Source: Torymus aiolomorphi (taxonomy: Eukaryota; Arthropoda; Insecta; Hymenoptera; Torymidae). From it: a stretch of 64,000 nucleotides of DNA. Of this stretch, positions 24,181 through 57,221 are shown in pieces (position 1 is the stretch's first letter; each line of letters opens with the position of its first letter). The stretch spans positions 45,445,083-45,509,082 of the forward strand of contig CM070874.1 of assembly GCA_036365515.1 (NCBI GenBank). The letters are read 5' to 3'. A program made the translations under genes and the position numbers. The notes beneath the pieces were generated by a model. It did not search any database and was not told the origin of the DNA. It was given only the letters and a program-made list of their open reading frames with translations.

Positions 24181-24499
24181 GAGCCCTGTTGAAAAGACCT
24201 CATAAAATACTATAAAAAAAATTTTTTTATCGAAATTTGCGAGGTTTTTGCACCCGGAGAGCCTGATAAAATACTATGTATTATTATAAACCTATAAGGG
24301 TTTATCTGATTCAACCTATTAGTTCTATAGTACACCCCTTATAAGATATGACAAAACGTAATTTTTTATAAGGATTTATAAGGGTCTAATATTAATATGA
24401 AAATAATTTCAGTAATTTATAGTAACTTATGAGGTATATATTACTAATAAAAAATATTTGGTTTGCATTTATCTGGGTTTATAAGAATTTTCACAACTT

Positions 24500-27360
24500 T
24501 TGAATAATTTTAGTAAAAGATACTATCTAATCGGTATTTATCATACTATTACTATAACGCCATTTACAGTGTTTTATAATGATCGTTGCATGAAATTCGA
24601 CGTTCATCTACCGGATGCTACCGGCTGAACCGACGATCAAAGCATTATTATTCAATTCGCTTATCGCAATTTATCAGGCATTGCAATATAAAATATTAAT
24701 TACTAACGAATAGGCATATATCGGGATATCAAGAGAATTATTGCTTTAGGCCGCATTTTTGTATCGGGTTTTATGGGCCTTTCCACGGTTAGAGAAAGTA
24801 GGGGCTATCGGTTTTTACCGCTATAATTCTGCATTTTCAAGAATCCTACGCGATCCATTTATAGTGTTTTATGGTGAATGTAGCATCAAATTCGAGGTTC
24901 ATCTACCGGATGCTACCGGCTGAACCGACGATCAAACCGTTTTTCCTCAATTCGCTTATCGCAATTTATCACGCATTGCAATATAAAATATTAATTACTA
25001 ACGAATAGGCATATATCGGGATATCAAGAGAATTATTGGTTTAGGCCGCATTTTTGTATCGGGTTTTATGGGCCTTTCCACGGTTAGAGAAAGTAGGGGC
25101 TATCGGTTTTTACCGCTATAATTCTGCATTTTCAAGAATCCTACGCGATCCATTTATAGTGTTTTATGGTGAATGTAGCATCAAATTCGAGGTTCATCTA
25201 CCGGATGCTACCGGTTGAACCGACGATCAAACCGTTTTTCCTCAATTCGCTTATCGCGATTTATCAGGCATTGCTATATAAAATATCAATTACTAATGAA
25301 TAGGTATATATCGGGATATCAAGAGATTTATTGCTTTTTGCCGCATTTTTGTATCGGGTTTTATGGGCCTTTCCATGGTTAGAGAAAGTAGGGGTTATCG
25401 GTTTTTACCGCTATAATTCTGCATTTTCAAGAATCCTACGCGATCCATTTATAGTGTTTTATGGTGAATTTAGCATCAAATTCGAGGTTCATCTACCGGA
25501 TGCTACCGGCTGAACCGACGATCAAACCGTTCTTCCTCAATTCGCTTATCGCGATTTATCAGGCATTGCTATATAAAATATAATTACTAACGAATAGGTA
25601 TATATCGGGATATCAAGAGAATTATTGCTTTTTTCCGCATTTTTGTATCGGGTTTTATGGGCCTTTCCACGGTTAGAGAAAGTAGGGGCTATCGGTTTTT
25701 ACCGCTATAATTCTGCATTTTCAAAAATCCTACGCGATCCATTTATAGTGTTTTATGGTGAATGTAGCATCAAATTCGAGGTTCATCTACCGGATGCTAC
25801 CGCCTAACCGACGATCAATCCGTTTTTCCTCAATTCGCTTATCGCGATTTATCAGGCATTGCTATATAAAATATGAATTACTAACGAATAGGTATATATC
25901 GGGATATCAAGAGAATTATTGCTTTTTGCCGCTTTTTTGTATCCGGTTTTATGGGCCTTTCCACGGTTAGACAAAGTAGAGGCTATCGGTTTTTACCGCT
26001 ATAATTCTGCAGTTTCAAGAATCCTACGCGATCCATTTATAGTGTTTTATGGTGAATATAGCATCCAATTCGAGGTTCATCTACCGGATGCAACCGGCTG
26101 AACCGACGATCAAACCGTTCTTCCTCAATTCGCTTATCGCGACTTATCAGGCATTGCAATATAAAATATTAATTACTAACGAATAGATATATATCGGGAT
26201 ATCAAGATAATTATTGCTTCTTGCCGCATTTTTGTATCGGGTTTTATGGGCCTTTCCACGGTTAGAGAATGTAGGGGCTATCGGTTTTTACCGCTATAAT
26301 TCTGCATTTTCAAGAATCCTACGCGAGCCATTTATAGTTTTTTACCATTTTACCATTTATAGTGTCTTATGGTGAATTTTGTATCTAAGATAAGGTTCAC
26401 TTACCGGATGCTGTCGGCTGAACCGCCGATCGAACCGTTCTTCCCCAATTTGCTTATCGAGATTTATCAGGCATTGCTATATAAAATATGAATTACTAAC
26501 GAATATGTATAATCGGGATATCAAGTTAATTATGGCTTTTTGCCGCATTTTTTTATCGGGTTTTATGGGCCTTTCCATGGTTAGAGAAAGGACGGGCTAT
26601 CGGGTTTTACCGGTATAATTCTGCATTTTCAAGAATCCTACGCAAGCCATTTATAGTGTTTTATGGTGATGTAGCATCAAATTCGAGGTCCATCTACCGG
26701 ATCCTACGGGCTGAATCGACGATCAAAGCATTATTATTCAATTCGCTTATCGCGATTAATCAGGCATTGCTATATAAAATATTCATTACCAACGAATATG
26801 TTTATATCCGCATATCAAGATAATTATTGCCTTCTACCGAATTTTTAAATGGGGTTAGGTTATATATGTCGTTTCACGGTAACAATAATTAATTGTTATC
26901 TGTTCTTACCGCTATTTTCCAGCAATTTACGAAACTTACCTGATTAATTTATAGTCTTGTGATGGTCGTTGACACAAATGCATGTTTCGACTCCGGATGT
27001 TCCCAGCTGATTAAAGCAATCTTTATCTATGCACTGATTACGATCTATTGTGTAATATTATATAAAATATTGAAAGCGAAGTAATAAGTTTATATATATG
27101 CGAATTTCAAGTTAATTATTGCCTTCTACTCTATTCTTTTTACGGGGAGGTGAAGGCTATTAAACTTGAACAGTAACTAACATCTATCGGTTCCTACCAA
27201 CATATTTCATTATTTTCAAGAAATCTGCGTTATTTGTTCATAGTTTTTTATGGTCATTGCAACAAAGCCGAGGTTCGTTTACTGGATGATGCCGAGTTAA
27301 TCAAACATTAAAGCAATCGTAATTAATTCGTTTACTGCAATCTATAGTGCATTACTACAT
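24500..27360 (+). repeat. Left subterminal satellite array, ~295 bp x ~9
   Basis: The landmark TCGGGATATC recurs at 24721, 25016, 25311, 25605, 25899, 26194 and 26513, with degenerate copies near 26807 and 27099: spacing 294-295 except one 319-bp step caused by a local duplication near 26330-26360. Units are close to identical at the outer side and decay inward. The 60-codon frames at 25331, 25625 and 25919 are translations of successive units, not genes. Confidence 0.9.
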
Positions 27361-27389
27361 ATAGTATCAATTGACAAGCTCTATATATA

Positions 27390-27770
27390 TATAGTGATGT
27401 TAAATACCGACATAATTTTCAAACGAGTACATCTCATGAAAATACCAATAGAATCATCCAAAAAAAAATCGAAGTATAGTATTAACATATACAGAGCGCT
27501 TGAAAAACGTGTTTTTCCAAAAAAAATATGAGAATTTATTTAATTAAATAAAAACCGTACTGTCGGTAAGTAGGAATATACAATTGACCTACTTTTCAAA
27601 CGAGCGTAGCTAACGAAAATGCTAAAAGAATCCCTAAAAAAAATTCCTGAATATAGTTTTTATGTGTACTGAGCGCTTGACAACATTTGTTTTCCGAATA
27701 TACGCTTGAATGTTGATTTAAAAAATATTGAAATTTACGGTTTCACGTGGCCTTAATTTATTTATTTTAT
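27390..27770 (+). repeat. Subterminal segment S (copy 1)
   Basis: Two related ~170-bp halves, each with an (A)n-TC.GA.TATAGT block and GAGCGC(C/T)TGA. A direct (not inverted) counterpart lies at 54390-54775. The ends resemble the TIR element at 62997 (CGGTAAGTAGG; CACGTGGCCTTAA). Confidence 0.6.
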
Positions 27771-27959
27771 AAATTTGCAATCAAATTTGTTTACTTAGAG
27801 TATACAGGTACAGCAGCAATCACATTGGGTTTTTAACATCTATTATAATTAATACCTTTCTAACTAACATTTTTAAATTGTTATAACTTAAAAATAAAAC
27901 ACAATACTTAAAATTGTAATCCGATAATCTATACCATTACTAAGAGCTCCACGTTGCTT

Positions 27960-30900
27960 TTATTCAGACTCGTCACTACTGGTGTCATCACTATTGCCAC
28001 TCGTTTCTTCAATACTGTCACCTTCCGATTTTTCTTCATTACTTTTTTCACATTCTTCATCATCAGATTTTTTTTTCTTCATCTGTTTTTATATTTTTTG
28101 CATCATCATCTTTGCATTTATTATTTTTTTATTAATTTTTCGAGACTGGCGAGGTGGTCTATTTAGATCCCACATCTTTGCGGCTATCCATGCACCGACC
28201 TCTCTTCTTAGGTCTGCAATTTCCACAGGAGAATGCAATTTTTGAGTTTTCAAATAGTATTCAAAAATACCTGAAAATTAAAGCATTTTTACATATCTTA
28301 CTTTTCTACTGTTGTTTTCTTTTAATTTAGCATTACATTATGATACTGCACTTTTTAATTATTTCTTTTTTTATTATTACAAGCGATATTCAAACGCGCT
28401 TCGCGCGTACTTTTCTGTTTTTGATGTTATGCATGCTATCTTCATTACATTTTACTTTTAACTTATTTAAGTATTTTTTCTAAGTCAGAACTTAATCATT
28501 TTTATACTACTCTAAATGTAAAAATTTCATTTAAAAAAAATTCAAACATTAAATTCCAAACAGTAAATTTCTCGCGCCTTCTTATCGACCAATCAAAATC
28601 AAGCCTTTAGATGCTTCAACATGGCTGCTCATCACTTTTTTAAGAAGGGATAAAAATTTTAAAAATGTTTGCTTCCTCGTAAGAAATTTCTACACAATTT
28701 TTTCTACGGACGAAGAATAATGACTATATTTAAATGGACTATAATTGCATAGTAATACAAATGTTATTTTATTCGAAAGTTTTCAATTATTTATATATTT
28801 TTAATAATACAAAAGTGATATAATTAATCTTTTATAATTATGTTTGTTTTATAATACGGCTATAATCTTTTAAATTATACTAATAAATAACTACCCTAAT
28901 ATAATACTCGTATCTGAAAAAGGATTTCATGTTATCATTACTTACTATATACTGCAGCTAACTTTGTTGGATTTGTTTTTCTTTTTGTTTCATTGTTTTT
29001 GGACCTATGGCAGCCTCTGCCTGTAATGCTGGTCTCCTTTAATTCCTGAATGCCAATAATTGATACGGCAATTTCTTTAACGAAATGACTGTTTGAATTG
29101 CCATACCTGGCGGCATTGCTTTTAGCATTATCATAAGCTGTTAAGCTTATATAAATATCGTTACCACAATGAATCTAAAAGTTTGAAAATGATATTTTAT
29201 TTACTTTGTTTTTGTAACGTTTTTTTAATAAATAAATAAATAATTTAAGAAATAGGTCGAGTATGTCTATTTTTTCCTAGCAAAAAAAAAAAAAAAATTA
29301 CTTTACTTTACTACTTCTTTTGGATATTCGGTTCTCTCTTAAAAAATAACTTAAAGTTTGCGAGAGAACGAGTGAGAGCCAACGAAGAACTAACACAACT
29401 CGAAATATTGAACTGGCAATAGAAAATGTATAGGGAACTAAGGAAAACTGGAGAGAATTACGTCACACGTGGTTGCGCGTAAATAAACGCAAAGAAACCT
29501 CTTTTAATTTTCTTCAGTTTTTGCGGATCGCTTGAATTTTTGCACTCACTTTTTATATGTAAAAAGAACTTTATGATAACCTGAGAGAACTAAAGAGAAT
29601 TTTTACATACAACTGAGCATGCGGAACTTTTCTCAACTTGTTTTCTCTATGTATAATATAAAAGATTCATGAAAAAACTCACGTGTCCATCTTCTCTTAC
29701 ATATCCCACCTCAATATCACTTTTTGACATTATTTCAAAAGGATTGATTTTTCGAGCAGCTGTAAACAATAATTAAAAATAAATATTCAATTTTTAGATT
29801 AAAATCATTTTTCAAATTGGAGTTACTCCAGCTATTTTTATGCTATACCAATTTTTTTGCATCTGTTTTTCTATATACTGTTCTATTTAGTGTCTGATAG
29901 AAAAAAAAACCGCTGCCAATTCATTGGCCCGTAGCTTCCTCAACCTTAATTTGTTGATTCCTTTAATTAATTTTTAATAACAAAATTTATAAATCTACCT
30001 CTACAAAGAATTTTGATGTGATTAACTGAATTTTACTCCCGTAATCGTTGGACATGCAAATCTCATTTTTTTCATTTTTCAATGTTTACGTTATGGTTAA
30101 TAACAAAAGAACCGTAATAGCTAGAACCTTTTTTTTTAAATATAGCTATTTTAATTCTCTTTCGAATGCTACCCATCCGATTCAGATACATAGAGCCGTT
30201 CTCGAGAAATTGCGATTTGATAAAAATGTTAAAAAAATTTTAACCTCAAATATCTGTGAAATTTATGGACCAATCATTTTGCCCAAAGAACTCGACTAAA
30301 AATTTTTTTCTGTATTTTAGATACTCAATAGAACATAAGCATAACATTTTGGCGATATATTAAACTACGAACAATCCTCAAAATACCAAATAGTTTTAAA
30401 AATGATCTTAAACTTTAGAATTAGCAAAAAATGTGCTTATGTTAAACTAACTTTCGAAAAGAAATAGAATAAGTAAAACATAATTTTTTTTAAAGAAAAA
30501 ATGCAACTAATTGGTAGGTCTTACCGAATTCATCCATCTTAGAGATGACCTTGTTCTGTAAATCTATATTTATTTTCTTTAATTCCTCGCATTCTTTTTT
30601 TATATAATCTTTTGCCTCTTTTTCCTGATTTACCGTATTTTCTAATACCATAATTTTTTTCTTTAAGGCTTTTATTTCTTTTTTAAAATTTATTTCTTCC
30701 TCCATTCGTACTCTCTTTTTTTGCTTCTTGTGGGGGGATTTTTTATTTTTTTCTACAAGTTGTTCGTCTTTCTTTTGCTTTTTATCCTTTACAATTTTCT
30801 TTTCGACTTCTAGACATTCCATTTGTTTTTTTTTCTCCTGTAGAACAACTTCTTTTTCCTGCTCATATTCTTTCTCTTTCACACTGTCATTATTTCCCTC

Positions 30901-33900
30901 TTCCTTATGTTTTAATTTCTCCTTCATTTCACCCTCTTTTACTTCAACTGTCAAATCATCTATGGATTTTTCCCCCTGTAATTCATCATTTACACCTTCC
31001 TTTATTTTTTCTTCTTGGTTTTCGTTTATTTCTTTTAGTTTTTTATTTTCTTCCTCCTTCTCATCTATTTTCGTATTATCTATTGATTTCTGCTCATGTA
31101 AAATTGGTTTTTCATCTTCCTTCACTTTCTCCTCTTCATTTTTTTTATTAATATTTCATTTTTTTTATTTTCCTCGACATCACTGTTTTCTCTTTCTATA
31201 CATTCATCTTTTTTTGTGTCTTCATACGTGAAATTTTAGATATTGTTTTCTTTTTTCTATTCGATTTAGAATTAATTTTTGATTTTTTTAGTGTTTCTTC
31301 AGGCTTATCGTTCTCATTTCTTTTACGTTTTACATTTACCTAAAAAATATTCGATATGTAAATATATATATATATATATATATATAGCGCGTTATAAAAG
31401 TCTGAGAACGACAAAATTTCTCACACTCAAATTTTTGTTATTAAATAAAACAATTTTTGAACCTTAATCATATAGTTTTAATATAAAAGAAAAAGTATCA
31501 TATATTACCAATTTACTGATCAAAATTTAAACTTCTTTAAATGTAGTATAATTGATAAAATCTAATAGTGACTACTGTTTACTTTAATCTAATGTTCAAA
31601 ATATAATTTAATAGTTTATCTTTTAACCCTTTCAGTCACAGAAGCCGATATATCGGCCGCAAATTTCTTTTTCTTCTTTTTTTTCATATTTTTCAAATTC
31701 CAGGCAGGATTTTGAAATTTTTGGCACTTTCAGGTACTGAAGTACCAATCGACTTTTAAGTCATGAAGATATTTTGTCGATATGTAATTGTTGATAGTTA
31801 TTATAAATAAACAATTGTCAAAAAAATGGATTTTTGGGAATCTAATGCGTTAGCGGACAAATTTGATAGTTAACATATGCTTTTTACACTTGTAATTCTT
31901 TGATTGATTAACAAAGCTTATAGAATCGTTATTAGATTTACAAAATTCAATATGGCGTATCCAATATGCACTCTTGCACCAAAGTACCTGAATTATGTGA
32001 CTGAAAGGATTAATTCGCTAATAACCACAACTTAAAAATGTTTAAGTGGATTTCTCCGAGAATACCCTTGAAAAAATAAACTACTGGACAAAAATTACTA
32101 CATAAACTACGACACATTATTGACGAACTACTTTATTCCTATAGTAATTCGATAACTACCAACAATTTTACCCTGTATTATAAATATATACAACATATGA
32201 ACCGCTGTTGGAGCTATTGCTCAATAGTTTATCTGCAGTATGAAGATAATAATGAAGTTTTCGTAACTAGCTATGACCTTAATCGTATCATTCAAAGACT
32301 AGAAACTACATTTTAACATTTACTAATTATTAACTGCTTTTCAGCCAATTAAAATTTTTTAACTACCAAAGATTATTGATATGCTGGTAATACCTTCATT
32401 GTTTTTTTCCTTTTGTCTTTTTCTTGTTTAGCCATATCTACTTTCTCTTTTTTTATTTGCAGCTCACTCATTAGATTAAATGGTTCGCTAGGAAGCAATT
32501 TATTTTCATTGTTCTGAAACATGTTTGATAAGAGTATATTAGCTTTTTTAAATACAGTAATTAATAGCCTTATTTAATGTTTTATGTTCAATAAAATTGA
32601 AAAAAGTCAAGTAACTTGTACAGTGAGAGAAGAATACGGTTATATTAAATAAATATTTGAGTAGGTGGCACAACTAAACGTATACAGTAACAGTTACTAT
32701 ATCTCATTTGAGTGAAACATACGTACAGTATATTCAATTATGGTACATTAACTATTACCTTAAAGCTCATAAAATGGCTTCAAAATGGCTTAAATAATTG
32801 CGTATAGTAATAGTTACTATTTCATCACTTTTTCTAATCATTTAAAATTTTTTGAAATTAGATAGAAACGACGACTACCTAATGTGGTCCACAAAACCTA
32901 GCCAAATTATTTTATTCAATAACTCTATCAGTTTAGATGTCATAAAACTATATCTCAGAGATTATTATAGATCAAATATGTGGTTGAAGTTTGCAACATT
33001 GCGACTCCAACAAAATCCCAACTTGTAAAAAATTATACTTTTCGCCTGGAATCGATTCTACAGCGACAATAATGATGTGAACAGCAAATAAAGGTGCAAG
33101 AAAATGAAAAACAACAAAAAGTCACCCCTTAACACCCCATTTTGTAATGGAAAAAAAGAAAAAAAATTCTAATTCCGCCAGTTTTGAGATCGCCAATAAT
33201 TTTATTCCCGGAATATATGTTTAAGCCTGCAGGATACCTACAGAAAAATTGGCAACCCCGCAAGCACCGTGAAAGACCCCAAAACTACCCCTTTCGCCCG
33301 AAACAAAAATTCAAAAAATTCTAATTTGTCCGTTTTTGAGATCGCCAAGAATTTTATTCCCGGAATACTATTTTGAGCCTGCAGGGTAGCTACAAAAAAA
33401 TTGGCAACGATGCAAGCACCGCGGAAGACCCCCAAACTACACCTTCCGTCCAAACAAATCGCAAAAAAAATCTAATTCCTCCGTTTTTGAGATTGACAAT
33501 AATTTTATTCCCGGATTAGAATTTTGAGCCTGCAGGGTAGATACAACAAAAATGGTCAAATCCCGCAAGAATCGCGGAACACCCACAAACTACCCCTTTC
33601 GCCCAAAAAAATCGCAAAAAATCTAATTCCTCCGTTTTTTTACATTGCCAATAATATTATTCCCGGAATATATATTTAAGCCTGCAGGATACATACAGAA
33701 AAATTGGCAACCCCGCAAGCACCGTGGGAGACCCCTTTTCACCCGAAAAAAAACATACAAAAAATTCTAATTTGTCCGTTTTTGAGATCGCCAAGAATTT
33801 TATTCCCGGAATACAATTTTGAGCATACAGGCAGCTACAAAAAAATTGGCAACGATGCAGCACCGCGGAAGACCTCCTTTCGCCCGAAAAAAATACAAAA

Positions 33901-36900
33901 ATTCTAATTTGTTCGTTTTTGAGATCGCCAAGAATTTTATTCGCGGAATATATGTTTAAGCCTGCAGGATACCTACAGAAAAATTGGCAACCCCGCAAGC
34001 ACCGTGAAAGACCCCAAAACTACCCCTTTCGCCCGAAACAAAAATTCAAAAAATTCTAATTTGTCCGTTTTTGAGATCGCCAAGAATTTTATTCCCGGAA
34101 TACAATTTTGAGCCTGCAGGGTAGCTACAAAAAAATTGGCAACGATGCAAGCACCGCGGAAGACCCTCTAACTACACCTTCCGTCCAAACAAATCGCAAA
34201 AAAATCTAATTCCTCCGTTTTTGAGATTGACAATAATTTTATTCCCGAAATACAATTTTGAGCATGCAGGGTAGCTACTAGGTGACTTTTTGTTGTTTTT
34301 TATTTTTGTTGGAGTCGCTATGTTGCAAACTTCAAGCACATGATCAAATTTAGTGATCTGTTACTTAAAATAATTTTTTTTTTTTTTTTTTTTTGACTTA
34401 ACGGGATGTGATGTTCATTGTTAGGAATCTTGATCACGATCTTTTTAATAATTATTTAAAAATCAAAACATATTTCCGAAAAAAATGCAATGTGTTACAT
34501 AAGATTCCAAAGATTATTTGATTGTAATTATAAGTTATTTCATTCATAATACTAGGAAAAATTTTTTTTTTAAATTTTACTTTTATAGTTAATATTTATG
34601 TTAGCTTGAAATCGATGTTCAAAGATAAAAAAAATGACGAAGAGAATAAGTTTGAAAGATTTTATTGTATCCCTCTCGACGCTGTATCTCAAAGCACACC
34701 TCGACCCGAACCATTCGTTAATAGTGCTCGAAACAATCTGCCGCCCGTGCAGAATCTTCCTGGTTCCTTGCTTTACATCCACGCTTGCCTTTTCAGGCTG
34801 GTCGCTGTCGATTGGTCCCTTTTTAGGGATTTCTCTGGGTCCAAGAATATGTTTTGCCCAATGTTTTGCCCATGTTGGCAATCAAGTGAGGGATATCTGG
34901 ACGGCATTATGTCTTCTCCATCTTGGAGGCCGGTTGACATGCGCTTTCTTGTACAGTTATGAATCGAATGGCGAAATGGAAGCTAGATAATCTTTGCAAA
35001 ATTACTGAGGGCATCACGTTGCTTTTTGATTTTGTTTTGATTTTGAAATCCTATCCTATCCGTCTTTTATTAAATTAAGGAACAACTTTCAGTGTAATTT
35101 TTGACGTCACATCTTTTTCCTAAATGACACACCATATGTGTCATTTAGGGCGTGTGTGGATGAAATGGATGAATATGGGTGAATATGGGATGGGTATAGA
35201 AGAATATGGATAACCGAGTGAGCATTACCGAGCGAGGTATTAATGCTCGTAATAAAATAATATCGATTTCAATAAAGTATATCTCTGACCATTTATTTTA
35301 TATCTTCTTAAATTAGGTAGAAAATGATTTTAGTTTACGTGTTGTGTGTGAGAGGAAGGATTAAGTTTCTTTATTTAATATATTCTTTATTTATGAAGGT
35401 TCAATTATAAAATAAAAATACAAAAATAAGAGTATAAATTTTTAGATCAATTCTTTATTTAAAAACAAGTTTGCATGAATTTTTTCAGTATTTTTGATCG
35501 CGCATTTTTTAGAGGGAAAAATTCATAAAAATTGAGTCTGTGGAAAAGGGAATTATAACGCTTTTGAGCACAAAACTCTATTATAAAAATGCAGATGTTA
35601 AGTAACAAAATCTATAGTTTAATAAGAAAACGGTCAAAGAATGAAAATGCAGGCAAGTCTTAAGAAACTCTTCATTTAGTGGAACAGTTTTGATTTTATA
35701 GTAATTACTGTAAACTACGTATTAATCTAAACTACTAAATTGAGGTTACGTACCAAATATATTATACATACTCGTTGACAGAAAAATTATGATGTCCGAA
35801 AGTACTGCTTTTTATAATTCTTTATATTATATTTCTGGAAATAACGATGTCATTGTATTTCAAAATCATTTGGAAGAAAAGAAATGTATAATTCTTTTGC
35901 TATATCAATAACAACAGCCTTCTGTGCAATTTCATTGATATTGAAAATACTATATGAAGATTTTTTTTTTGTAACCTTGAAAATGTGTGGGGCTATTGCT
36001 GACTCATTTTGTCCATTAAAATCATTACTACCTATCAGCCAAATTTTTCCATATATATAACAAACATTTCCTGAGATTACAAAATAGTATATTTGTAAGA
36101 TTTCTCCAGTAACAGTTTGGATTACAGAATCATCGGTTTTTTTCACTCGATTGTACTTTACAGTATGAATATATTTTGATTCATAAATACAACGATCGTA
36201 AACTTTTATAACAATTGTTTCATCCTTAGCAAAATTACGGAAATAATTTTGAACTCCAATGTTGTTAATTCCACTTCCAATTAATGTTGCTGTTCCAATT
36301 CTAGTAACATTTTGTAACTGCTGTCTATCAATAAAAAGTGATTTACAAAATTCGATAGCAGGAGAACATGTGTTTTCATTTGTTAGGTAACTCTGAAACT
36401 CAGCATTTTTTAACCACTTGTCGGCTATTTGTTTAACGCATCCATTCGGGGCATTCATCTCTCTCAGAAATTTATATATGCCATTTTCGAATGGGAACGC
36501 TGACGTACACCATAAAGGACCAGTTTTACGTACTGCTAGGCAATAATGAATTAGAGAGTGTACATTGAAAGTAATAAATTTAACTTCATAAAAAATCTCA
36601 CTTTCACCTACAAATTTCATCAAGTTAAATTCACATTTAGCAATATTAGCGTCAGTTATTGATTTCTGTACAAGCATGTAGATACTTGAAACAAATAAAG
36701 CATATGAATCAAATAGTTCTTTAGGAAGTATTCCATGCAGACATGGTAAACTTACAAAAAGCAACCATGTTTTCAACTCAGTTGCTTTGTATTTGTCAAA
36801 TAAATCTATAGAACGAATATTTCTACGAATGTCTCTGCAAAGTTTTATATTGCACATTCGTTTTTTAATTTCTTCGCGATCAGATTTACTGAAATAAAAT

Positions 36901-39900
36901 GTATTCCAGTATCTGAATAGTTGCCGTACCACACCTAATAGGGTGCCATGCATATAATCTGGAGGAAAGCTCCAAATTATATCGAAAATTGGCAGTTTAA
37001 GTAAAACTGAATGGCCTTTCACTCCATTTATCCATTTTCCAAATTTTAATGACTTTTGTAAATCTGTTACATGGTCTTTATGTGATCGTATTTGGGGATC
37101 ATTTGCAAGAAGAGGATATCGCATGGAACCACTATCATATTTGCCAGGATGATAACAATAGCTACAACCACAACATCCATTAAATTTAATTCTATTTTGA
37201 AATAACGGTCTAGCCACAGTATCTGTACAACCGAATAATGGGAGAATTATTTTGTTGATACGTATTCCTGTGCGATGATCAGTTATATCAATACCTTCTG
37301 ACCGAAGACTTTCACACTCCTCCACAAAGGTAATCATGAAAAGATTCATAAAATCCGCTGTAGGTTCTTTTTCTGTTTGTAACAATGCAGCTAAAATTAT
37401 ATGTTTAAAACGAACATTGGGTGTTAATTCGTTGATGTATAGTTGAAGTGGCCACAAACTTTTTTTTTGCACTATTAAATAATTGTGCACCATCACCGTT
37501 AAAATTAAATGTCAAAGCATCAGGAAATTCCTTTTGTATATTTTTATATAATTCACAATTGGTAATGTCTTGTATAGTATCATTATTATGCGAAAGTTTT
37601 TTTAATAAATCCATATTATCTTGGATATCAGGACGATTCAGTAAAAGCTGTAACTGGTATTTTATGTCAACTGTTATAAAATAATTCAGTGATTTCGATG
37701 ATATAGTTATCATTTTTTCGCACTTCTCACATTGCACTGACTTCGAAATATTTATAACACTTTTAATCGAAAGTAATTTCACATTGCATTCGCTACAATA
37801 ATAATGTTTGTTAATCTTATCAGATGGAGTTTGAAACATCCTTGATATCAAGAAGGGTGTATAATTCCAATTATCAAATTCTGATCCAGCTAAAGTTTGA
37901 ATTAATTGCAATAACTCAATTTGCATATCTCGCGTCATATTGCATTTGATGATCATGCCTTTTAACATTAAAAGGACTTCCGAAACTGTTAAATTAGAAG
38001 CTGCAAACATAATTCTGTTGTCTTTTTCAAGTTATACAAATTTCTACTATCAGATTTTGAACGTGTCTCATCATCTTCATCGGATTCTTCGTCAGATTCA
38101 CTATCACTACTGCTATATATCTCGTTTTTCTTATATTCATCTTCAATAAACTCTGTACTTTCTTCAGAACCGCAACTTGAGGTAGTATCACATTCATCGT
38201 TCTCAATAACAATGTCAGTATCTAATAATGAAACATCGTTATCTTCAAATTCAATGTCACTGTGGCAAACTTCCGGATTTTGTATACTACTATTTTCTGT
38301 ATGTTCTATCTTTCTACTACTACTGGCAATTACATGACAATCACTTGTATTAGGTTTGTCTTCATTTCTTATGCATTTTTTACTGTAATAAATTTATAAA
38401 ATACCAATACAATGTATTAACAAACACGTATATTGTAACAAGATAAATTTTCACATTCGGTTCATATATAACTAATGTTAATTAAAGTATTTTGCATAAA
38501 AATTATTAATTAATTGCTTTATGGTATATGTTTTATCTTTTTACATAAACAGCTATTTGACGGTCCCAAGACCCCATTTTTTTGTGGTTCCGAGACGAGG
38601 AATATCTCAAGAAGTAATAAAATAGTACATTGTGTAACATGGGGGTGAAAGTAGCAGATAGTCCCTTGTGTTTACTGCCCGAAGCAAGAGCAGTAATTAC
38701 CCGAGAGAAAAATCTTCTCGCGAGGGCAGTAATCACCCAAGGGGAATATCTACTTTCGTCTCGTATTACGTATAGTATTTTATTCCACATTCGAGTGTCG
38801 CCACCTTTTGACCATGAGAAGAGAGACCGACTCATCCGACGCGTTTTTTGTTTTATTAAGGTTCGAATTTATAGTCAGTGCTCAGTGCTCAAACTTCCAA
38901 TATGGCGGCCATATTATTGTATATCTATATTATACATTGAAAGTTTGAGCACTGAGCACTGAATACTGACTATACATTCGAGCCTATGTTGATTTAAAAT
39001 GTGCGCGCATCTACCAGATTCTCTTCGATTCTACTACCGGGCGTTGCGCGAGAGGTGACGAATTAATGATTAACATTGGAATTATTAATTAAACAGAGTA
39101 TTAATTTGAGAATTAACTCTTCAATTGTTAATTAAATAACACAATTAATTGAGAGTTTTTCAATCGTTAATTAAATAGCTAATTAATTGAAAATTAACTT
39201 TCCCATCGATGAATTATTAAATGAGAATTAACTTTTTAATCGTTAATTTAATGGCCAATTTATTTGAATTCTTAATTAAATGACACAATTAATTGAGAAT
39301 TAATATTCTAATCTTCAATTAAATAGCTAATTAGTTGAGAATTAATTTTCCAATCTTCAATTAAATAACTAATGAATGAGGAATTAAGTTTTTAATTACC
39401 TTACTCCCGTGAATCTATAAATTGGCTAAATACATAACTGTTATCAGTAAAATACAAGAGAAAAGTGCTCGAAGTCTATAAAACGTTTGTACTTAGGAGT
39501 CGTACCTCCTAGGGTCCACCTACGACCATTTTAAGAAGACGTACACATGTAACGAGGAAGGGCGATTTGTGGTGAGATTTTCTTACCCTCGAATTTCGAA
39601 TATGCGCAGTATTACTAAGGCTTGTCTATTACGCAGTGAACGCCATTTCGGACGTTTACCTGAACTCGCGGCAGTTTACAAAGATTTTATGGATGAATAC
39701 TTCACAATCCATCATATGGAAAAAGTGACCATTGAGCTGGTAAGAACTGCATCCTGTATTGAAAAACTTTAGCAAAAATATCCGCGTCGTATTTAATGCT
39801 CCAACTTGCTGCCGATGAAGAGCGAGCTTTTCCCGAAGTTGCTGAAGTACTGCGCACAGGATGATATGCAGATGACTTTTACGCGGCAGAAGACTCCGTG

Positions 39901-42900
39901 AAAGAAGCTGCCAATTTGCGCGATCAACTAGCTTCAGCGGGTATGGAAGTTAGAAAATGGTCGGCCAAGCATAAAGATTTATTTAGTGGTTTAAGTGCTA
40001 CAGGAGCCCATTGTAAGGAGGATACCTTAAAACAAGAGGAGAAAGCAATATTTTCCTTAGGCCTTCGTTGGTTAGCGAACGTAGATGTTTCCTGTTTCAA
40101 CATTGCAGACTCACAAGTCTCATCTAGCTGTCGCGAAATGCTCCATTGTAGCCGCTACAGCAAAGCTTTTTGATCTAGTAGGGTGATTGTCGTCTACTGA
40201 TTACTATCGTGCATGCGAAAATTCTTTTTCAGAATTTATCGCTTCAGAAGTTGAATTAATATGATCAAGTTTCCCACAAAATTTTAAAATCTTGGATGAA
40301 ATATTCCAGTTGAAAGAGTTGGAAAAAATTAAAAGACCTTGCTGGATCGGCACATGTCAAAACTCCGAGTGGCTTCTCCATGGATTCTGTGATGCATCAG
40401 AGCGTGCTTTCGCATATGCAGTCTAAACCGTGGTCCCACGCCAAGGCGACTATTCTGTGAAATTACTCACGGCCAAATCCAAGGTTACACCTATTAAAGT
40501 TATAAGTTTGCCGAAATTCGATCGAAAATTGCCTTAACTCTCGGCCGCTTTGCCCGTTAAGTTCCGATGAAGAAGAAAAGGTAGTGATAACATGTAGCTA
40601 GTTGCGGTTGCGAACCGATGGTGAATGGACGAAGTTAATCATTTTTTAAATACATATGTGTGTATGTGAGTGAGAACTGGTAATCAATATCCAGTTTTAC
40701 TCTTACCATTGCTAAAACGAGTTTTTCTTTGATAACTCTGTCCTCGTCTGAAGACCGAACATATTTGAACAAAAGTAAAAATGTATCTTGTTAACAACTT
40801 AAGCTAATAGCTTATTCTTAAATAAATAAACAAATAAAAACTTACACTCCATATTTTGCTTATGTGATAACAAAATTTTTTCGTATCTTCTACGAGTCCA
40901 TTTGCTTACTTTGCCTTTACGATAATCATCAGATAAATACAATTTATAATTTTTCCTAGTTGGACCCATTGTTATTTAAATAAATATCTAATTAAAATAT
41001 TGCTAAACCTAAAATAATTTTAATCATCAAATATCTGCTTTTTTTTAAATGGATGTGAGGAAAGCATAATTCTTGTAAAAGAACGCGGGCTACTTAAGGT
41101 GGTTCCCCGGAAATCAGAGTTGATTCAACACATACTTAATTATACACGTAGGTCAATAAAAACATAACGTTTTGACATGTTTAAAAGATTTGACATTAAG
41201 AAGACACTGCGATTTTGATGATAAAGTGCATTTTTGAAATTTTACTGCAATATTTACTTCTAAAAATACGGATTTTTGAATAACAAAATTATAACAGAAG
41301 CAAACAATTTTTTTTAGTGCAGTATTTTCAAAATCGCAATGCAGTTATCTTCGAAATATATTTTAGAATATCTTTGAAAAGTTTCAAATCGATTGGTCAA
41401 ACCCCGTTGCGCTAAACAAAATGTTCTGATTTCATTCATTTTGACAGGTTTTTAGCTTTTATCCACTATAAAATGGACTTTAATGGACCCTATCAACATT
41501 CATATATGTTTGTTATGATGTATTTTAGTAAGTTTTACAAGAAAATATAATTAATTACGTAAAGAATTTGACCTTTACCTGTACCTTCTTCCGTTAAGGG
41601 ACGTGACAACAAAAAAGAAAATAAGAACAAGGAAGCAAGAAGATTGCAAAATAAGGGAAAACCGATTGTTTAAATAAATTAGTTTTGCAAAAACAATGTC
41701 AACACATATATAACATGCATGTTGAAGATAAAAATACGCTGCAATCACAAATTATGAATATTATGAAAATTGAAAAAATTTGTTATTAATTTTGCAGACG
41801 TAAACCTTCAATGAAAAAACTCAGTACATACACTAAAAAAGGTAAGGGCGCTGCAAGCCGCCGCGTATGTGTATACAGCTGCGCTCAGGTTTTGAGTAGA
41901 CGTTGCTGATTTTAGCGGAACATACGTCCTAAAATGAATCCGCAACAATATACGGAACTACGCATGCGTAGGTTGCGCGAGTGCTCCCCTAAAAGCGGAC
42001 AGTATAGGGTAACTAGCCCAGTAGATATAGACACAGATAGACGAATAATATAGTTTTATCATTAAGTAAAGAAATTTTTAAAGTAAACTACACTTAATCT
42101 TCAAGAACTATGTAAAACTAAGTGAAAAAACTTTTTTTACTACGTCTATCTGTTAACAGTAAGTTGTATCATTAATTAAAAGATCGTCCATCTACTGGCA
42201 TTTCGTTTGCTTTAACCGTCCATCTATTGGGCAGTTAGTGGATAGTGTGGGTGGAGTGCTTCGTCCGACTTGAGGACCTAATAAAGCAGTGCTTTCGGTC
42301 TATCTGTCAGGTTATAGAGAGAATAGAGGGTAGGCTCCAGAGAAATAAGGGCAGTGTAATATAATGGGGGACAGCCGCTTACTCGTTCCACTCAACAGAT
42401 ATAAACATAGGACATCATGTGGAAAAAACGACCTCGAAAATGGTGATAAGGTATTTTGCGCATTTTTTATAGATATTTTCATGATGAATAATCTTGTAGA
42501 AAAGGGAACGTGTAAAAAGTGTCTTTGTTGTGTTAAAGAGTTAATAAAATATGTTAAATTATTAACTAAATATGTTAAATGGTTAATTAATTGTGTTAAA
42601 TAATTAATTAAATATGTTAAAATCTTACCCTGTCAGAAATCTCATTCAATTTGCAACTTAGAATACCAGCTGTATCATTTATACAGTTAATATTAATTTT
42701 GTTCTTCGACGTTCCAGCTTTTTCTATTTCTGAAAGTTCAGAGGCTGAATCCAAAATATTTTGAGGAGGAAGTGTAATTCTATTTTTCTTTATTTTTTCC
42801 TCCAATTTTTGTAAATCATCTGAAAATTATTTTAACATTCTATACATAGTTTTTAAATGTCACCTTTACAATAAAAAGTTCCTTTTAACATAAATACGCG

Positions 42901-45994: not shown

Positions 45995-46068
<74 letters not shown>

Positions 46069-51500: not shown

Positions 51501-51839
51501 CCATCCTTGATGGATTCTGGCCGAATGTGCCTGCTAAATTTCAAAATCCTGCAATCTCATTGGACAATTTGAGTGTAACCATTAACCTTAAATTGGGATC
51601 GGCCAACGGGATTCCAGGATTTTGAAACTAAGGGGCACGTTCGGCAAGAATCCCTCAAGGATGGGTGTACATACAATCCAAAAATTTTTTCCCCATACAA
51701 ATCTTCCTCTTTGAGGAAACAAAAACGGAATAAAATGCAATCGCAAAAAACACGGGACTTCCTGCCGGAATTTGAAAAATGCGATAAAAATTATCATTAT
51801 ATTATTAAATGAAATTACTTAAATATGATTAAAGAAATA

Positions 51840-52028: not shown

Positions 52029-53225
52029 ATACTATACTTATAAAACAATTATCTAAACAAATCTGGAAAAGATAAATTCACATTTAGCATTAAAAATCAA
52101 TATTATTGAATGCGAATATTAATTATGTTGTAAAAAATCTATAAAGCAATAGCTATAATTTATTATCTGTACTTTGCTAATAAATTATAATTACAATTAT
52201 AATTACTATCTATAAAAAATAAATAACAATGTATACAAAACTATTTATTACCTGATAAGTTAATGAAATTGCCTAGTCGCAGCAAGTCAAAAAACGAATA
52301 GGACTATGCAGATCCAACAGTAGTTCTATACTGAAAACTTGTACAACCACTGAAATATGATCAGTGAGTGCTGCTACGCAAGGAACAAGCATCGAAGAAA
52401 ATCTATGTAATTGTAGTAAACCGATCAATGGTCAGATATTGAAGATCCACATTCAGTGGCAAGTATACTATACTTATGAATCAATTATCTAAACAAAACT
52501 GTAACAGAGAAATACACATTTAGCATTAAATATCAATATTATTTAATGCGAATATTAATTATTTTGTATAAAATCTTAGTGAACTAAGATTCTATTGTAT
52601 AACATTCATTAAATCAGTTGTTTTAATTTATTAGCTGTTATTTACTAATAAACTACGATTAAATGATTTATAAAGCTAATAAATGTGTTATATATAAAAA
52701 AGAATTAGTATATATAAAAACACCTATTACCTTATGGTTAATGAAATTGCCTAGTGTAGCAAGTCAAAGAGTGAACACACACTATGGAGATCCAATACTT
52801 CTATACTGGAATACTTGTACGAATACTGAAATCAAATCAGTCGAGTGCTGCTGCGTAAGGAACCAGCATCCAAGGAAATCAATTTAAATCTATTTGTAGC
52901 AACGTATCAATGGCGAGATAATGAAATAGAGCTGTTCTGACCAATTACACAATATCCACTTTCAACAATAAATACAATACTTGGAGCACTGAGGTAAACA
53001 AATCTGTAAAAAAAATTAACATTTAACATTAAAAATCAATGTTATTTCATGGGAAGATTAATTATTTTGTAAAAAATCCTAGTTAATGAAGCAAAATTTT
53101 AGTCTAAAAAATTTATTAAAACAGTACTTTTCATTTATTAACTGTAATTTGCTAATAAAGTATAATTAAAATATGTGCTATCTATAAAAAATAAATAACA
53201 ATATATACAAAAACACTTATTAATA
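51841..53225. repeat. Triplicated ~480-bp segment
   Basis: Three degenerate direct copies. Markers: GCGTAAGGAGCAAGAATCCA (51917), ACGCAAGGAACAAGCATCGA (52375) and GCGTAAGGAACCAGCATCCA (52853); each is followed by a CAAT(A/G)..CAGA(C/T)ATTGAAG block, TTTAGCATTAAA.ATCAATATT and ATTAATTATnTTGTA. GAAATTGCCTAGT opens copies 2 and 3. Only copy 1 keeps the open frame. Confidence 0.75.
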
Positions 53226-53733
53226 TGTTAAAGTATTTTTAATAATAAAATACTGCAATCTATAATATTCATTTAAATAAATTACAAGAAAAAGTTAAAT
53301 TTATTTGTAGGTTATACATGTGCTCTTCACATGCAAACGTAAATATAATAAAAATATTGCAACAATGTAAAAACTATTATTATAACTACATAAATATACA
53401 ATAAATAAATTAGTATTAATTATTTCTATGTTACTTACATTAGTTTAGAAAGTGATGCTGATGAATTTCCGTAACGACTTTATCACGTATAATGCATAAA
53501 CGCTTCCGGCCATATATCGTTAATGTGTCCGAATATTTGCAAACCCATACAGTAAATGACATAGGTTACTATACCTATATACATAAGAAACAAAGGAGCC
53601 GATTTTCATATGTATATATAGGTATAGTAACGCATGATACGTATTGTGCAGCCGATAGGTCAGGCAACTGTTTTACCGCGACAGTTTTTCAGCGCGCAAA
53701 AATTGAAAGCGTCTTCAAATATTAATTATAGAA
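53226..53733. other. No gene seen
   Basis: AT-rich. The 77-codon plus frame at 53492 crosses an inverted pair (ATAGGTTACTATACCTATAT / ATATATAGGTATAGTAAC) and is probably chance. Confidence 0.35.
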
Positions 53734-53861
53734 TAAGGTCCGAATTCATAGTGAGACGTGAGCAGTGAGACGGACTCAAGTAATGTTTGAAGCCATGCTT
53801 TAGTATATCTATATATGCCGTATTTGAGACCGACTCAGCGTCTATATGAATTCGGGCCTAA
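53734..53861. repeat. Hairpin MITE, TAAGGTTCGAATT family (copy 2)
   Basis: TAAGGTCCGAATTCATAG at 53734 mirrors CTATATGAATTCGGGCCTA ending at 53861; TA is likely the duplicated target. Confidence 0.8.
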
Positions 53862-54255
53862 TAGTTTGAAAACTCTTTAGAGCATGAATTAATTAATTAA
53901 AAATAATACAAAATATTATCATAAATAAAATATAAAATAGAAATAATATATAAAATTATTAAAATTTGAGAGTCTATACAAGAAACATCCAGCATAAACC
54001 TTAAAGTTTCAAATAATTAATAATTTTATTAATTATTACGATTTATTATTATTTTGTATTATTATTAAAAATTTTTCTTTTTATCAGAGTAAATGTGCGT
54101 ATTTACACTAGGATTTCTTCATTAAAAGATAGAAACGATATTAATCTTATAAGAATTTTTCAGTTTATTGCTATCTTGAATAAATTAATAAATTACAATA
54201 AATTTGTTTATCGGTTTATATGAGGAATTCTTGGTACAAGCACACACGTTGATTT

Positions 54256-54302
54256 CGATAAAAAAAAATTTTATAGTATTTTATAAGGTTGTTTTAACAG
54301 GG
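54256..54302 (-). repeat. Internal tip-like sequence of the giant element
   Basis: The minus strand reads CCCTGTTAAAACAACCTTAT and continues AAAATACTATAAAA into a T run and ATCGAAAT, matching the left tip at 24184 over ~50 bp. The similarity stops exactly at the CCCTG, as expected of a true transposon end. Confidence 0.7.
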
Positions 54303-54389
54303 TATGATTTTCACATGAAATATAAATGATAAACATGAATAATTATTATTGTAAACAAAATCTGCAGTTTCTAGTTCTATTTAAGATAA

Positions 54390-54775
54390 TGTGTACTTAC
54401 CGACAAATTTTAGAACATATATATCTTTTGCAAATAATAATAGAATTACTAAAAAAAAAATTGAGTATAGTATTTATATATACGGAGCGCCTGACAGAGC
54501 TGTTTTTCCAAAAATCTACTCAGAATTTATTTAATTAAATAAAAGCCGCAATGCCGATAAGTAGGGATCTGTAATACTTCGAATTTTGCCAGTTTTAAAA
54601 CGAGCGTATCTCATGGAAATGCTGATAGAATCGCACAAAAAAAATCTGAGCATAGTATTTACATACACGGAGCGCCTGACAGAATTGTTTTTCCAAATAA
54701 ACGTTCTAATGTTTATTAATTAAATAATGAAATTGGGTTGATTTTTAGGTTCACATCGCCTTAATGATGATACCG
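54390..54775 (+). repeat. Subterminal segment S (copy 2)
   Basis: Same two-part structure as 27390-27770 and in the same orientation, although the adjoining satellite arrays are inverted relative to each other. Confidence 0.6.
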
Positions 54776-54929
54776 AATTAGCTGATGAAGTGATCTCTAC
54801 CCTGATAAAAAAAAGACTATTGAAAAGCCTATTTGCAGCGTTTACTAGTTCTTATTTTATATAGTACACTATAGACGACAATAAACGAATAATTAATTCG
54901 TTTATCAATAAATAATATACATTTTTTTT

Positions 54930-56560
54930 ATTGTTGGCTCTTCTGACAGCATTCGGTTGATGAACCTTTGATGGGATACAGCGATGATTATAAAGCACTA
55001 AAAAAGGTTCGGGCATGTTTCTTTCTCTTACCGTGAAACGGCCTATAAAACCCGAGAAAATAATGCGACAATAAGAAACAATTTAGTTGATATCCCGATA
55101 TATACCTATTCGTTGATAACTAATATTTTATATTGTAATGCCTGATAAATCGCGATAAGCGAATTGAGGAAGAACGGTTTAATCGCCGGTTCAGCCGGCA
55201 GCATCCGGTAAGTGAACCTTACCTTAGATACAACATTCACCATAAAACATTATAAATCGCTCGCGTAGGATTCTTGAAAATGTAGAATTATACCGGTAAA
55301 AACCGATATCCCCCCTACTTTCTATCTAACCGTTGAAAGGCCCATAAAACCCGATACAAAAATGCGGAAAAGGCAATAATCAACTTGATATTCCGATATA
55401 TACCTATTCGTTGGTAATTAATATTTTATCAATGCCTGATAAATAGCGATAAGCGAATTGAATAATAATGCTTTGATCCTCGGTTCAGCCGGTAGCATCC
55501 GGTAGATGAACGTCGAATTTGATGCAACATTCACCATAAAACACTATAAATCGCTCGCGTACGATTCTTGAAAATGTAGAATTATACCGGTAAAAACCGA
55601 TATTCCCCATACTTTCTCTAACCGTTGAAAGCCCCATAAAACCCGATACAAAAATGCGGAAAAGGCAATAATCAACTTGATATCCCGATATATACCTATT
55701 CGTTGGTAATTAATATTTTATATAGCAATGCCTGATAAATAGCGATAAGCGAATTGAATAATAATGCTTTGATCCTCGGTTCAGCCGGTAGCATCCGGAA
55801 GATGAACCTCGAATTTGATGCTACATTCACCATAAAACACTATAAATGGCTCGCGTAGGATTCTTGAAAATGTAGAATTATACCGGTAAAAATCGATATT
55901 CCTCATACTTTCTCTAATCGTTGAAAGCCCCATAAAACCCGATACAAAAATGCGGAAAAGGCAATAATCAACTTGATATCCCGATATATACCTATTCGTT
56001 GGTAATTAATATTTTATATAGCAATGCCTGATAAATAGCGATAAGCGAATTGAATAATAATGCTTTGATCCTCGGTTCAGCCGGTAGCATCCGGAAGATG
56101 AACCTCGAATTTGATGCTACATTCACCATAAAACACTATAAATGGCTCGCGTAGGATTCTTGAAAATGTAGAATTATACCGGTAAAAACCGATATTCCCC
56201 ATACTTTCTCTAACCGTTGAAAGCCCCATAAAATCCGATACAAAAATACGGAAAAGGCAATAATCAACTTGATATCCCGATATATACCTATTCGTTGGTA
56301 ATTAATATTTTATATAGCAATGCCTGATAAATCGCGATAATCGAATTGAGGAAGAACGGTTTGATCGCCGGTTCAGCCGGTAGCATCCGGTAAGTGAGCC
56401 TTGTCTCAGATGCAACATTCACCATAAAACACTATAAATGGTTCGAGCCTATTTGTTGAAAATATAGAATTATAACGGTAAAAACAGATATCAGGTACTT
56501 TCGGTTATCGTGAAACGGCCTATAAAACCTGATAAAAAATGTAGTAGAAAGCAATAATTA
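54930..56560 (-). repeat. Right subterminal satellite array, ~295 bp x ~5.5
   Basis: The reverse complement of the left array: (T)CCCGATATATACCTATTCG recurs at 55094, 55393, 55684, 55980 and 56276. Units at the two ends share the ACCGGATGCTACCGG and TTATGGTGAAT..AGCATC motifs. Confidence 0.9.
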
Positions 56561-57180
56561 GTTGTTTATTCTTAATTTTTATCTTCTAAATTTTTATAAG
56601 TGCTTATATACAAACTTTTAATTTTACAAGTTTTTCACTATAAAATACTATAACTTGTTAGTTTATAATATTATACGAGGTTTCTGCACCCGGAATTCTT
56701 TACAAATCCCTATTAATTATAAAAAAAAAGAATGCTATTATTTATGGTAATTTTGCGATAAGTTCTCATAAAATTTTTTATAAGGAAATCATGATCGATT
56801 TAAAATTTTACATTATTATCATTTTTACTATAAAAGCCGATTGGTATTCTTATGGATTGACTTATAAAACTTCCGCTCTGAAAACTCTTATATGTACTTA
56901 TAACTTTTTTATCTGCTTATTGCGATATGTTCCTATATTCAAAAAACAATGCAATTCAAGATATATTCTTATAAACAATCTTATGAGTATAACCCTATAA
57001 AAGATTATAAGAATGGTTGCCTTATAAAAACTGATATATTTTTTACCGGGAGAAACCCTATATAATCTAAATTTATAAACTTGACATTCATGTTTATAAG
57101 GAATTCACTATAATGGCAGATAAAAATATTTATCCCGATATGTTACTATAAAAATTTTATCGGGAGTCGGATAAAAAGAG
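56561..57180. other. Right subterminal AT-rich DNA
   Basis: No gene. Rich in TTATAAG-type words, as is the left end at 24280-24500. CGAGGTTTCTGCACCCGGA at 56680 has a direct-orientation relative at 24240. The 69-codon frame at 56791 is chance. Confidence 0.5.
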
Positions 57181-57221
57181 GTATATTTTTATCGGATTTT
57201 ATGAGGTCTTTTCAACAGGGA

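Follow-up and report, generated by a model that had tools for sequence, protein, structure and literature searches.

In a 64,000-nucleotide stretch of the Torymus aiolomorphi genome (the window), two satellite-like arrays, a transposase gene and a putative BEN-domain gene lie between identical inverted tips 33 kb apart. This locus raises two questions: whether everything between the tips is a single transposon, and what the arrays and the second gene might do for it.

Extent and mobility of the element

The element of the window, copy A, and its surroundings comprise the following features (a strand is given where one applies):

24184..57220: copy A, whole transposon, 33,037 bp (paired tips, AG on both sides, copies B, C, E and F)
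24184..24208, plus: left 25-bp terminal inverted repeat, CCCTGTTGAAAAGACCTCATAAAAT, identical to the right one
57196..57220, minus: right 25-bp terminal inverted repeat, CCCTGTTGAAAAGACCTCATAAAAT inverted
24182..24183: target-site duplication AG, left copy
57221..57222: target-site duplication AG, right copy
54252..54302, minus: internal right-type terminus, in copies A to F
23960..24181: fold-back element hosting copy A, left part (insertion site)
57223..57322: fold-back element hosting copy A, right part

A genome search with the 25-bp tip gave 38 matches, including six left ends at ~100% identity, one of them that of copy A. With right ends taken from the matches of the same search, 11 paired-end elements were obtained at unrelated sites, each flanked by a perfect 2-bp target duplication (11/11); copies G, H and L, for which the search gave no right end, are outside this count. 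The full copies B, C, E and F, located at other loci, align with copy A from end to end, and pairs of full copies differ by 35 to 108 substitutions in all over ~33 kb aligned. Nearly identical copies are spread over four of the five large contigs, in sequence surroundings that are unrelated, and older families with the same anatomy are present in the genome. This comparison shows that 24184-57220 moved as one 33-kb unit, with 2-bp target duplications. Judged from the assembled sequence, it is a recently mobile transposon of T. aiolomorphi. The identical tips given in the preliminary description are present, and the single element that it had proposed is borne out by the paired ends, the duplications and the full copies; its alternative, tips confined to this locus, is contradicted by their recurrence at paired ends elsewhere.

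Inverted repeats are also found just outside both tips (23960-24062 and 57220-57322). A longer terminal inverted repeat, with these flanks as an extension of the element, was rejected: the flanks of the other copies are unrelated, and in silico excision of copy A joins its flanks into a continuous 324-bp palindrome. The flanks are mutually inverted because copy A inserted inside a fold-back element. The internal terminus is probably an older right end.

The transposase and the linked BEN gene

The coding features of copy A are:

35850..38393, minus: transposase, CACTA/TRC type (Pfam matches, motif series)
37989-38393, minus: transposase, acidic N-terminal part
35850-38031, minus: transposase core
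37477-37506, minus: motif D1
37206-37238, minus: motif D2
37143-37169, minus: motif C2C
36933-36962, minus: motif DxMHx3LG (PDYMHGTLLG)
36540-36566, minus: motif H3H
36468-36500, minus: motif E
30525..31339, minus: BEN gene, coiled-coil exon
29683..29759, minus: BEN gene, exon 2
28946..29174, minus: BEN gene, exon 3, most of the BEN domain
27960..28270, minus: BEN gene, last exon, end of the domain and acidic tail
39497..40520 (end approximate), plus: BEL/Pao retroelement remnant, carried inside

A six-frame Pfam scan for further genes between 40.2 and 54.3 kb gave a Pao peptidase match only.

The transposase has weak matches, both under Pfam's own cut-offs, to DUF4218 (E 0.0016) and Transposase_21 (PF02992, E 0.0029). 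It contains a CMC-type series of motifs (CSYC, HSLIH and FPFEN, in that order), in which the D and E residues were chosen by eye; the definition follows the description of CMC/CMCT transposases in the cited part of PMC12730594. In PDYMHGTLLG a proline precedes the aspartate where the published motif, D-x-L/M-H-x3-L-G, has L, V or I. The CCC core CCCTGTTG is found at the termini of all 11 paired elements, and CCCAGTTG occurs at the left tip of each of two loci that are more distant. With its CCC termini, 2-bp duplications and transposase motifs, the element matches the TRC group of CACTA/EnSpm as defined, CCC termini included, in the sections cited of PMC1636069 and PMC4298943. The EnSpm/CACTA-like assignment proposed earlier was right and is hereby narrowed. 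The element was also considered as a Foldback/Galileo-type transposon and rejected as such: its transposase is tnp2-like, its terminal inverted repeat measures only 25 bp and its arrays are subterminal.

TRC elements are animal CACTA transposons, among them SmTRC1 of Schistosoma and its relatives. As described in the cited portion of DeMarco 2006 (PMC1636069), they share with copy A the CCC tip, the 2-bp duplication, a Transposase_21-type transposase and the D-x-M-H-x3-L-G motif, and SmTRC1 likewise has a tandem-repeat region. The insect elements reported there measure 5.2 kb in Tribolium and 9.2 kb in Aedes, in contrast to 33 kb here, and that portion reports no BEN gene, whereas copy A has a BEN gene and arrays at both ends.

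The exons of the second gene together span 27960-31339 on the minus strand, with the BEN domain split over two exons. In a Pfam search with the BEN exon of copy A, BEN (PF10523) was not called, the score being under the cut-off. Among five family members, three match PF10523 at E-values up to 1 (best 6.5e-6), and two of these (L051 and L061) exceed the Pfam cut-off. A mixed profile of four solved BEN domains and six other BEN exons from the same genome scored copy A at 21.5 bits and the relative N at 16.3; for either, none of 1000 shuffles reached the score. The four solved domains alone gave a marginal result (8.4 bits; the best of 200 shuffles reached 7.9), and a PDB search with the family profile produced a single match, the BEN domain of Insensitive (4ix7), at an E-value of only 0.12. 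By these profile comparisons the product of the second gene contains a divergent BEN domain. The earlier naming of a BEN gene is therefore upheld as to family, which the relatives prove, but this call could not have been made from copy A alone. BEN proteins are best known as DNA-binding chromatin regulators, and Dai 2013 reportedly describes a sequence-specific DNA-binding domain in repressors. Our literature search turned up no DNA transposon described as having a BEN gene among its standing parts.

Between copy A and its sister M the transposase shows 72-75% amino acid identity over 190 and 430 codons, free of stops, with dN/dS values of 0.177 and 0.127, respectively. For the BEN gene, dN/dS is 0.16 over 74 codons of exon 3 and 0.13 over a 42-codon core of the last exon (0.20 for the entire exon). 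Purifying selection is evident in the conserved parts of both genes (dN/dS 0.13-0.18). BEN exons lie at the same place in all four further copies examined (I, K, M and N); I and K have a stop in exon 3 in common, which we count against our preferred reading. In the assembly sequence, homopolymer-length differences break the frames of the transposase, the BEN gene or both in all five fully fetched copies, one example being a difference in A-length near 37467 within the transposase of copy A. These differences look like assembly noise.

A BEN exon is located downstream on the same strand at 34 of 39 transposase loci with at least 48% identity, and at one of 36 loci below this value. Random placement gave a mean of 0.064 and a maximum of 2 (1000 trials). 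Exceptions occur in both directions: five of the 39 loci have no BEN exon, and eight of 42 strong BEN matches have no listed transposase upstream. This linkage shows that, within the genome as assembled, the constrained BEN gene defines a clade of such elements. It also disposes of the idea that the two genes always occupy separate loci.

Subterminal arrays and the tip word

The repeat features of copy A are:

24560..26846, plus: left subterminal array of 7.7 units (295 bp), in which the minus strand carries the 14-bp word about once per unit
55021..56491, minus: right subterminal array of 5.0 units (296 bp), in which the plus strand carries the 14-bp word
24202..24215, plus: 14-bp word as present at the tip, ATAAAATACTATAA

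The two arrays are inverted relative to each other and ~87% identical, in agreement with the oppositely oriented ~295-bp arrays described before. Decayed units prolong the left array to about 27400. The unit number differs only in copy F, whose left array has 10.7 units in place of 7.7; an apparent gain of units in the right array of copy E was rejected, the insertion lying just inside the array with the word count unchanged. The 295-bp unit has 196 matches in the genome. Those listed form 28 clusters, 24 of which lie within ~5 kb of a tip match; three of the remaining four lie at C1:147.454 Mb, C1:200.040 Mb and C4:61.748 Mb, and the last lies within copy J at C5:85.439 Mb. Because most listed clusters adjoin tip matches, we regard the unit as part of the element and reject a free genomic satellite.

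Arrays also occupy this place in relatives, where they are built from unrelated units of 238, 161, 292 and 360 bp. In four lineages the array lies inward of the left tip at a distance of 376 to 514 bp, and in M and N the unit family of the right array differs from that of the left. Four of the five unit types contain a tip-like 14-bp word, ATAAAANNCTATAA, about once per unit. The 292-bp unit contains it exactly, at a locus with a transposase of 50% identity; it is absent from the 360-bp unit (locus L063), as it is from 96% of shuffles. A reading of the 25-bp tip as the sole terminal signal is accordingly not borne out, as a word resembling it is repeated inside the arrays.

With up to two mismatches the word occurs 13 and 8 times in the left and right arrays of A and 9 and 12 times in those of M, compared to 0.5-0.9 in shuffles. 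Outside the arrays of A the counts are 5 in the interior (3.6 shuffled) and 2 and 1 in the flanks (2.7 and 0.6). Allowing one mismatch, the version of A was not found in the interior of five copies. The word was chosen after three arrays had been seen, so that only two later loci constitute a fresh test, which one of them passes. When 12-mers were searched without bias, the top rank went to a different word, ATWTATCGGGAT, and the 14-bp word's mismatch sum of 3 was matched by 3 of 20 control shuffles.

Possible roles of the arrays and the BEN gene

Taking these results together, we read copy A as a giant TRC-group transposon that moves by cut-and-paste and was active recently, with a BEN gene and with arrays as putative docking platforms (probability roughly 0.6). 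In the mechanism that we propose, the CCC tips would be cut by the transposase. The 14-bp tip word would be recognized by a DNA-binding protein of the element, either the BEN protein or the transposase. The satellite-like arrays just inside each end repeat this word about once per unit and, if the protein binds there as well, would therefore serve as docking platforms, by which two ends at a distance of 30-50 kb are joined or marked. Units would change fast, with the word kept in most lineages. We infer from the repeated word that these are docking arrays for an element protein; binding of the BEN protein to subterminal repeats or to chromatin would fit both the constraint on the gene and the repeated tip word. 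In maize En/Spm (TnpA, TnpD) the second protein binds repeated subterminal motifs, which offers a possible parallel; that element is ~8 kb long, its motifs are short and closely spaced, and TnpA is not known to be a BEN protein. More tentatively, there may be a whole clade of giant animal CACTA elements with their own BEN end-binding protein, which would make satellite ends time after time from unrelated sequence, each with one docking word, and bring into synapsis ends that are 30 to 50 kb from each other. In that case, part of the satellite DNA of a genome would originate as docking platforms for a transposase.

The BEN protein could instead be a chromatin factor that counters or guides host silencing or insertion, with the transposase alone using the arrays. 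We consider this unlikely, although nothing in the data contradicts it directly, strict linkage and constraint fit it as well as they fit docking by an element protein, and chromatin regulation is what BEN proteins are mainly known for. TET/JBP genes, with a proposed part in the escape from silencing, are found on transposons of fungi, EnSpm among them (PMC12730594, in the part cited), and a role as secondary transposase sites has been suggested for tandem repeats close to the ends of transposons (PMC3573991, likewise in part).

It is rather improbable that copy A is an ordinary CACTA element with a captured BEN passenger and passive tandem duplications. Random capture might produce the differing left and right unit families of M and N, and CACTA elements of Chenopodium capture gene fragments and satellite arrays, according to the cited passages of PMC8978399. 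A passenger would not be expected to show constraint similar to that of the transposase, a linkage of 34/39 in fixed order and strand, or arrays so constant in position with the tip word in most unit types. The 16.5-kb element of Chenopodium quinoa carries a satellite array, as does copy A; those passages describe a single array, made of 171-bp units and situated near the 3' end, as captured, whereas in the present clade arrays occur at both ends clade-wide, mostly with the tip word. A segmental duplication or assembly artefact is hardly credible: near-identical copies do share homopolymer errors typical of long-read assemblies, but they lie on four of five large contigs, every copy has a 2-bp duplication of its own and unrelated sequence around it, and older families share the anatomy.

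Two further groups of elements resemble copy A in part. Giant algal EnSpm elements (Chondrus, 16-20 kb with 4-5 ORFs, PMC6431247; Ectocarpus, up to 15.2 kb, PMC12477816) are also enlarged, with extra genes and fixed nested insertions. They are shorter, and the cited sections report neither a BEN gene nor satellite-array ends. Drosophila Galileo (P superfamily; PMC3573991, PMC4168063) and Tetris (PMC4079207) have tandem repeats inside long terminal regions, variable in copy number and proposed as secondary transposase sites; unlike copy A, they belong to another superfamily or to the Foldback type and are much smaller, and the text cited reports no BEN gene.

In copy A we have an animal CACTA element that moved recently and whose length is about double the greatest reported for EnSpm in the cited parts of this literature. 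Its second gene, constrained and clade-wide, has a domain otherwise known from chromatin regulators. Because several unrelated arrays of one clade share one word, the old idea that subterminal satellites are under selection as clusters of binding sites becomes testable.

Movement of the element as a unit

Copy A belongs to an element that moves as a unit, makes 2-bp duplications, has a constrained gene pair and carries arrays at fixed places. Its tips, arrays and two genes lie at the positions named in the preliminary description, and the shared tip is 25 bp long. The main features in the window are as follows.

24184–57220: copy A, 33,037 bp
24184–24208 and 57196–57220: terminal inverted repeats (tips), each with a subterminal array of 295/296-bp units
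27960–31339, minus strand: BEN gene, four exons (exon 3, 28946–29174)
35850–38393, minus strand: transposase gene
54252–54302: older right-type tip

A search of the genome (1.08 Gb, 21 contigs) with the first 301 bases as query gave 38 matches. Six left ends among them showed 100% identity and six more 91–93%. In 11 cases (copies A to F, I to K, M and N) the left tip is faced by a right-type tip of the same list; for G, H and L this list contained no right end. The flanks are unrelated between paired copies, and all 11 are bounded by perfect 2-bp duplications: AG (A), TT (B), AT (C), AG (E), TA (F), TT (D), AC (K), TA (M), TT (N), AT (I) and CT (J, where the second of two overlapping CCCT was taken as the tip). 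The chance of a 2-base match was estimated by hand as ~8% per site at 70% A+T. By coordinates, eight copies (A, B, C, E, F, K, M and N) span about 31.4–33.6 kb, with 33,969 bp for M, whereas I spans 46.0 kb, D 51.2 kb and J 116.1 kb. At that length J must contain nested DNA, and one array cluster, at C5:85.439 Mb among the 295-bp-unit matches listed, lies inside it.

Copies B, C, E and F, compared as whole sequences, align with A from end to end. The ten pairs among these five differ by 35–108 substitutions, 16–74 of them outside tight clusters, and by 60–79 gap openings, many within homopolymers. Clusters of private changes in a single copy look like conversion tracts. Two such clusters, at window 37566–37648 and 30745–30836 and each in one copy (A and C), resemble gene conversion from diverged copies. 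Copy A was inserted into a fold-back element: the two flanks of A, put together with one duplication copy, form a 324-bp palindrome at 88%. The left array of F has three units more than those of the other four full copies. Copies A to F all retain the older right-type tip at 54302, so the element seems to have gained its present right end by extending outward beyond this fossil terminus. A BEL/Pao remnant is present inside the element as well, which therefore kept moving after it was hit by another element.

Several neighbouring or related sequences were noted. A 152-bp tandem repeat within a 38-bp inverted repeat (window 32978–34341) is likely a nested element. Just outside copy A lie two arrays of 288-bp units (57768–59407 and 60434–62056), by eye unrelated to the element arrays, and an open frame on the minus strand (21559–21990) is reminiscent of a mitochondrial OMA1-like protein, perhaps a host gene beside the element. 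Short loci that combine a tip with a few 295-bp-type units, in some cases in both orientations (C5:105016506–105018754, C2:153630569–153633117, C1:206362973–206365755), are possibly small non-autonomous relatives or solo ends. A candidate miniature element at C4:50040109–50040409 has its two 87-bp tip regions in inverted orientation, 300 bp apart.

Subterminal arrays and a recurrent word

The left array starts 376 bp inside the tip. In M, a diverged sister, and in N the arrays occupy the same place with units of 238 bp (left) and 161 bp (right), neither of which matched the 295-bp unit in blastn. Two loci with transposases 50–51% identical carry a CCCAGTTGAAA tip; their arrays, which start 514 and 488 bp further in, have units of 292 bp and 360 bp, respectively. 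Among the five unit types, blastn at E 1e-3 matched only stretches of 22 bp and 15 bp.

Tip positions 19–32 form a 14-bp word, ATAAAATACTATAA, that is found again about once per unit. It has 13 and 8 matches in the ends of A and 9 and 12 in those of M, compared with 0.5–0.9 in ten dinucleotide shuffles; the interior of A has 5 matches versus 3.6 in shuffles. At both ends of A the array copies have the orientation opposite to that of the copy in the tip. Four of the five unit consensus sequences contain ATAAAANNCTATAA exactly (shuffles as good: 0, 0, 0.3% and 0.7%); the 360-bp consensus lacks it, with three mismatches at best (96% of shuffles as good). In a blind 12-mer search a different word, ATWTATCGGGAT, came out on top, and the score of the 14-bp word fell inside the range of the controls, 3 of 20 of which did as well. 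The 14-bp word is thus supported mainly because the same word occurs at the tip, and the evidence for it is good but not beyond doubt.

The transposase and BEN genes

Pfam assigned DUF4218 and Transposase_21 to the transposase, both below cut-off; a motif series D, D, C2C, H3H, E, assigned by eye, spans 37506–36468. Copy B has a single frame through most of the gene, homopolymer differences shift the frame in other copies, and in M it is open over the compared parts. Identity to M is 75% across a stretch of 430 residues and 72% across one of 190, with dN/dS of 0.127 and 0.177, respectively, ratios that are rough because dS is near 1.

The four BEN exons were placed by hand from splice signs. 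A further exon may lie upstream, near 32.4 kb, but no counterpart of this candidate was found in M. Comparisons of A with M or N give a dN/dS of 0.16 over 74 codons of exon 3 and of 0.20 for the whole last exon, with 0.13 for its core (42 codons). A Pfam search of copy A's gene did not call a BEN domain, and a profile built from four solved BEN domains, collected with a fly query, was marginal (8.4 bits versus 7.9 for the best of 200 shuffles). PF10523 has 74 matches in the genome at E up to 10, 48 of them over the cut-off (two only with neighbours), and none in a control set of 14 genomes. One matching locus, L051, shares 34% identity with the domain of the element across 90 residues. A mixed profile scored this domain at 36.6 bits with L051 and 21.5 without it, and none of 1000 shuffles reached either value. 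L051, L059, L060 and L061 each have a transposase relative of the same orientation upstream, giving four pairs within 30 kb versus a random mean of 0.28. Five aligned family members share IHCGN and 12 other invariant columns; three of them have a Pfam BEN match, and the sole PDB match of the family profile is 4ix7 (E 0.12). BEN exons are very numerous genome-wide (e.g. C1:41293140, C1:263464952, C3:64481837). As many of these PF10523 exons fall into equal-score sets, this transposon clade is probably not the only multi-copy repeat that carries BEN.

Genome-wide there are at least 81 transposase matches, a count that understates distant loci because 78 of 1675 first-look candidates were scored, and 55 matches to BEN exon 3; six transposase and two BEN secondary fragments were left out of the linkage count. 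Among the 39 transposase loci with an identity of at least 48%, 34 are followed downstream by a BEN exon on the same strand within 60 kb, in 31 cases at no more than about 20 kb. Below 48% this holds for one of 36, at 46.9 kb, where the exon probably belongs to another element; four more have a BEN match in another orientation. Conversely, 34 of the 42 BEN matches at E up to 1e-4 have an upstream transposase on the same strand, and eight, including those of G and L, have none among the loci listed. Under random placement the mean was 0.064 pairs and the maximum 2. The four further copies compared (I, K, M and N) all have BEN exons in the same place, with a stop common to I and K.

Relation to known elements and proposed mechanism

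TRC elements, a group within CACTA/EnSpm, are already known, and the consulted sections describe CCC termini and 2-bp duplications for them (DeMarco 2006, PMC1636069; PMC4298943); both are also found in the family of copy A. Likewise, excerpts of the respective papers describe giant EnSpm elements of algae (16–20 kb, PMC6431247; up to 15.2 kb, PMC12477816) and a satellite-bearing CACTA element (PMC8978399). In the portions of the open literature that were covered, we found no report of a DNA transposon with a BEN gene as a constant component.

Based on these data we propose that the transposase would cut at CCC and that an element protein may dock on the repeated word and help to pair the distant ends or to mark them. 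The same docking proposal was made for tandem repeats near transposon ends in the part of the Galileo study consulted (PMC3573991). Docking or a function in chromatin are candidate roles for the BEN protein, and either could apply.
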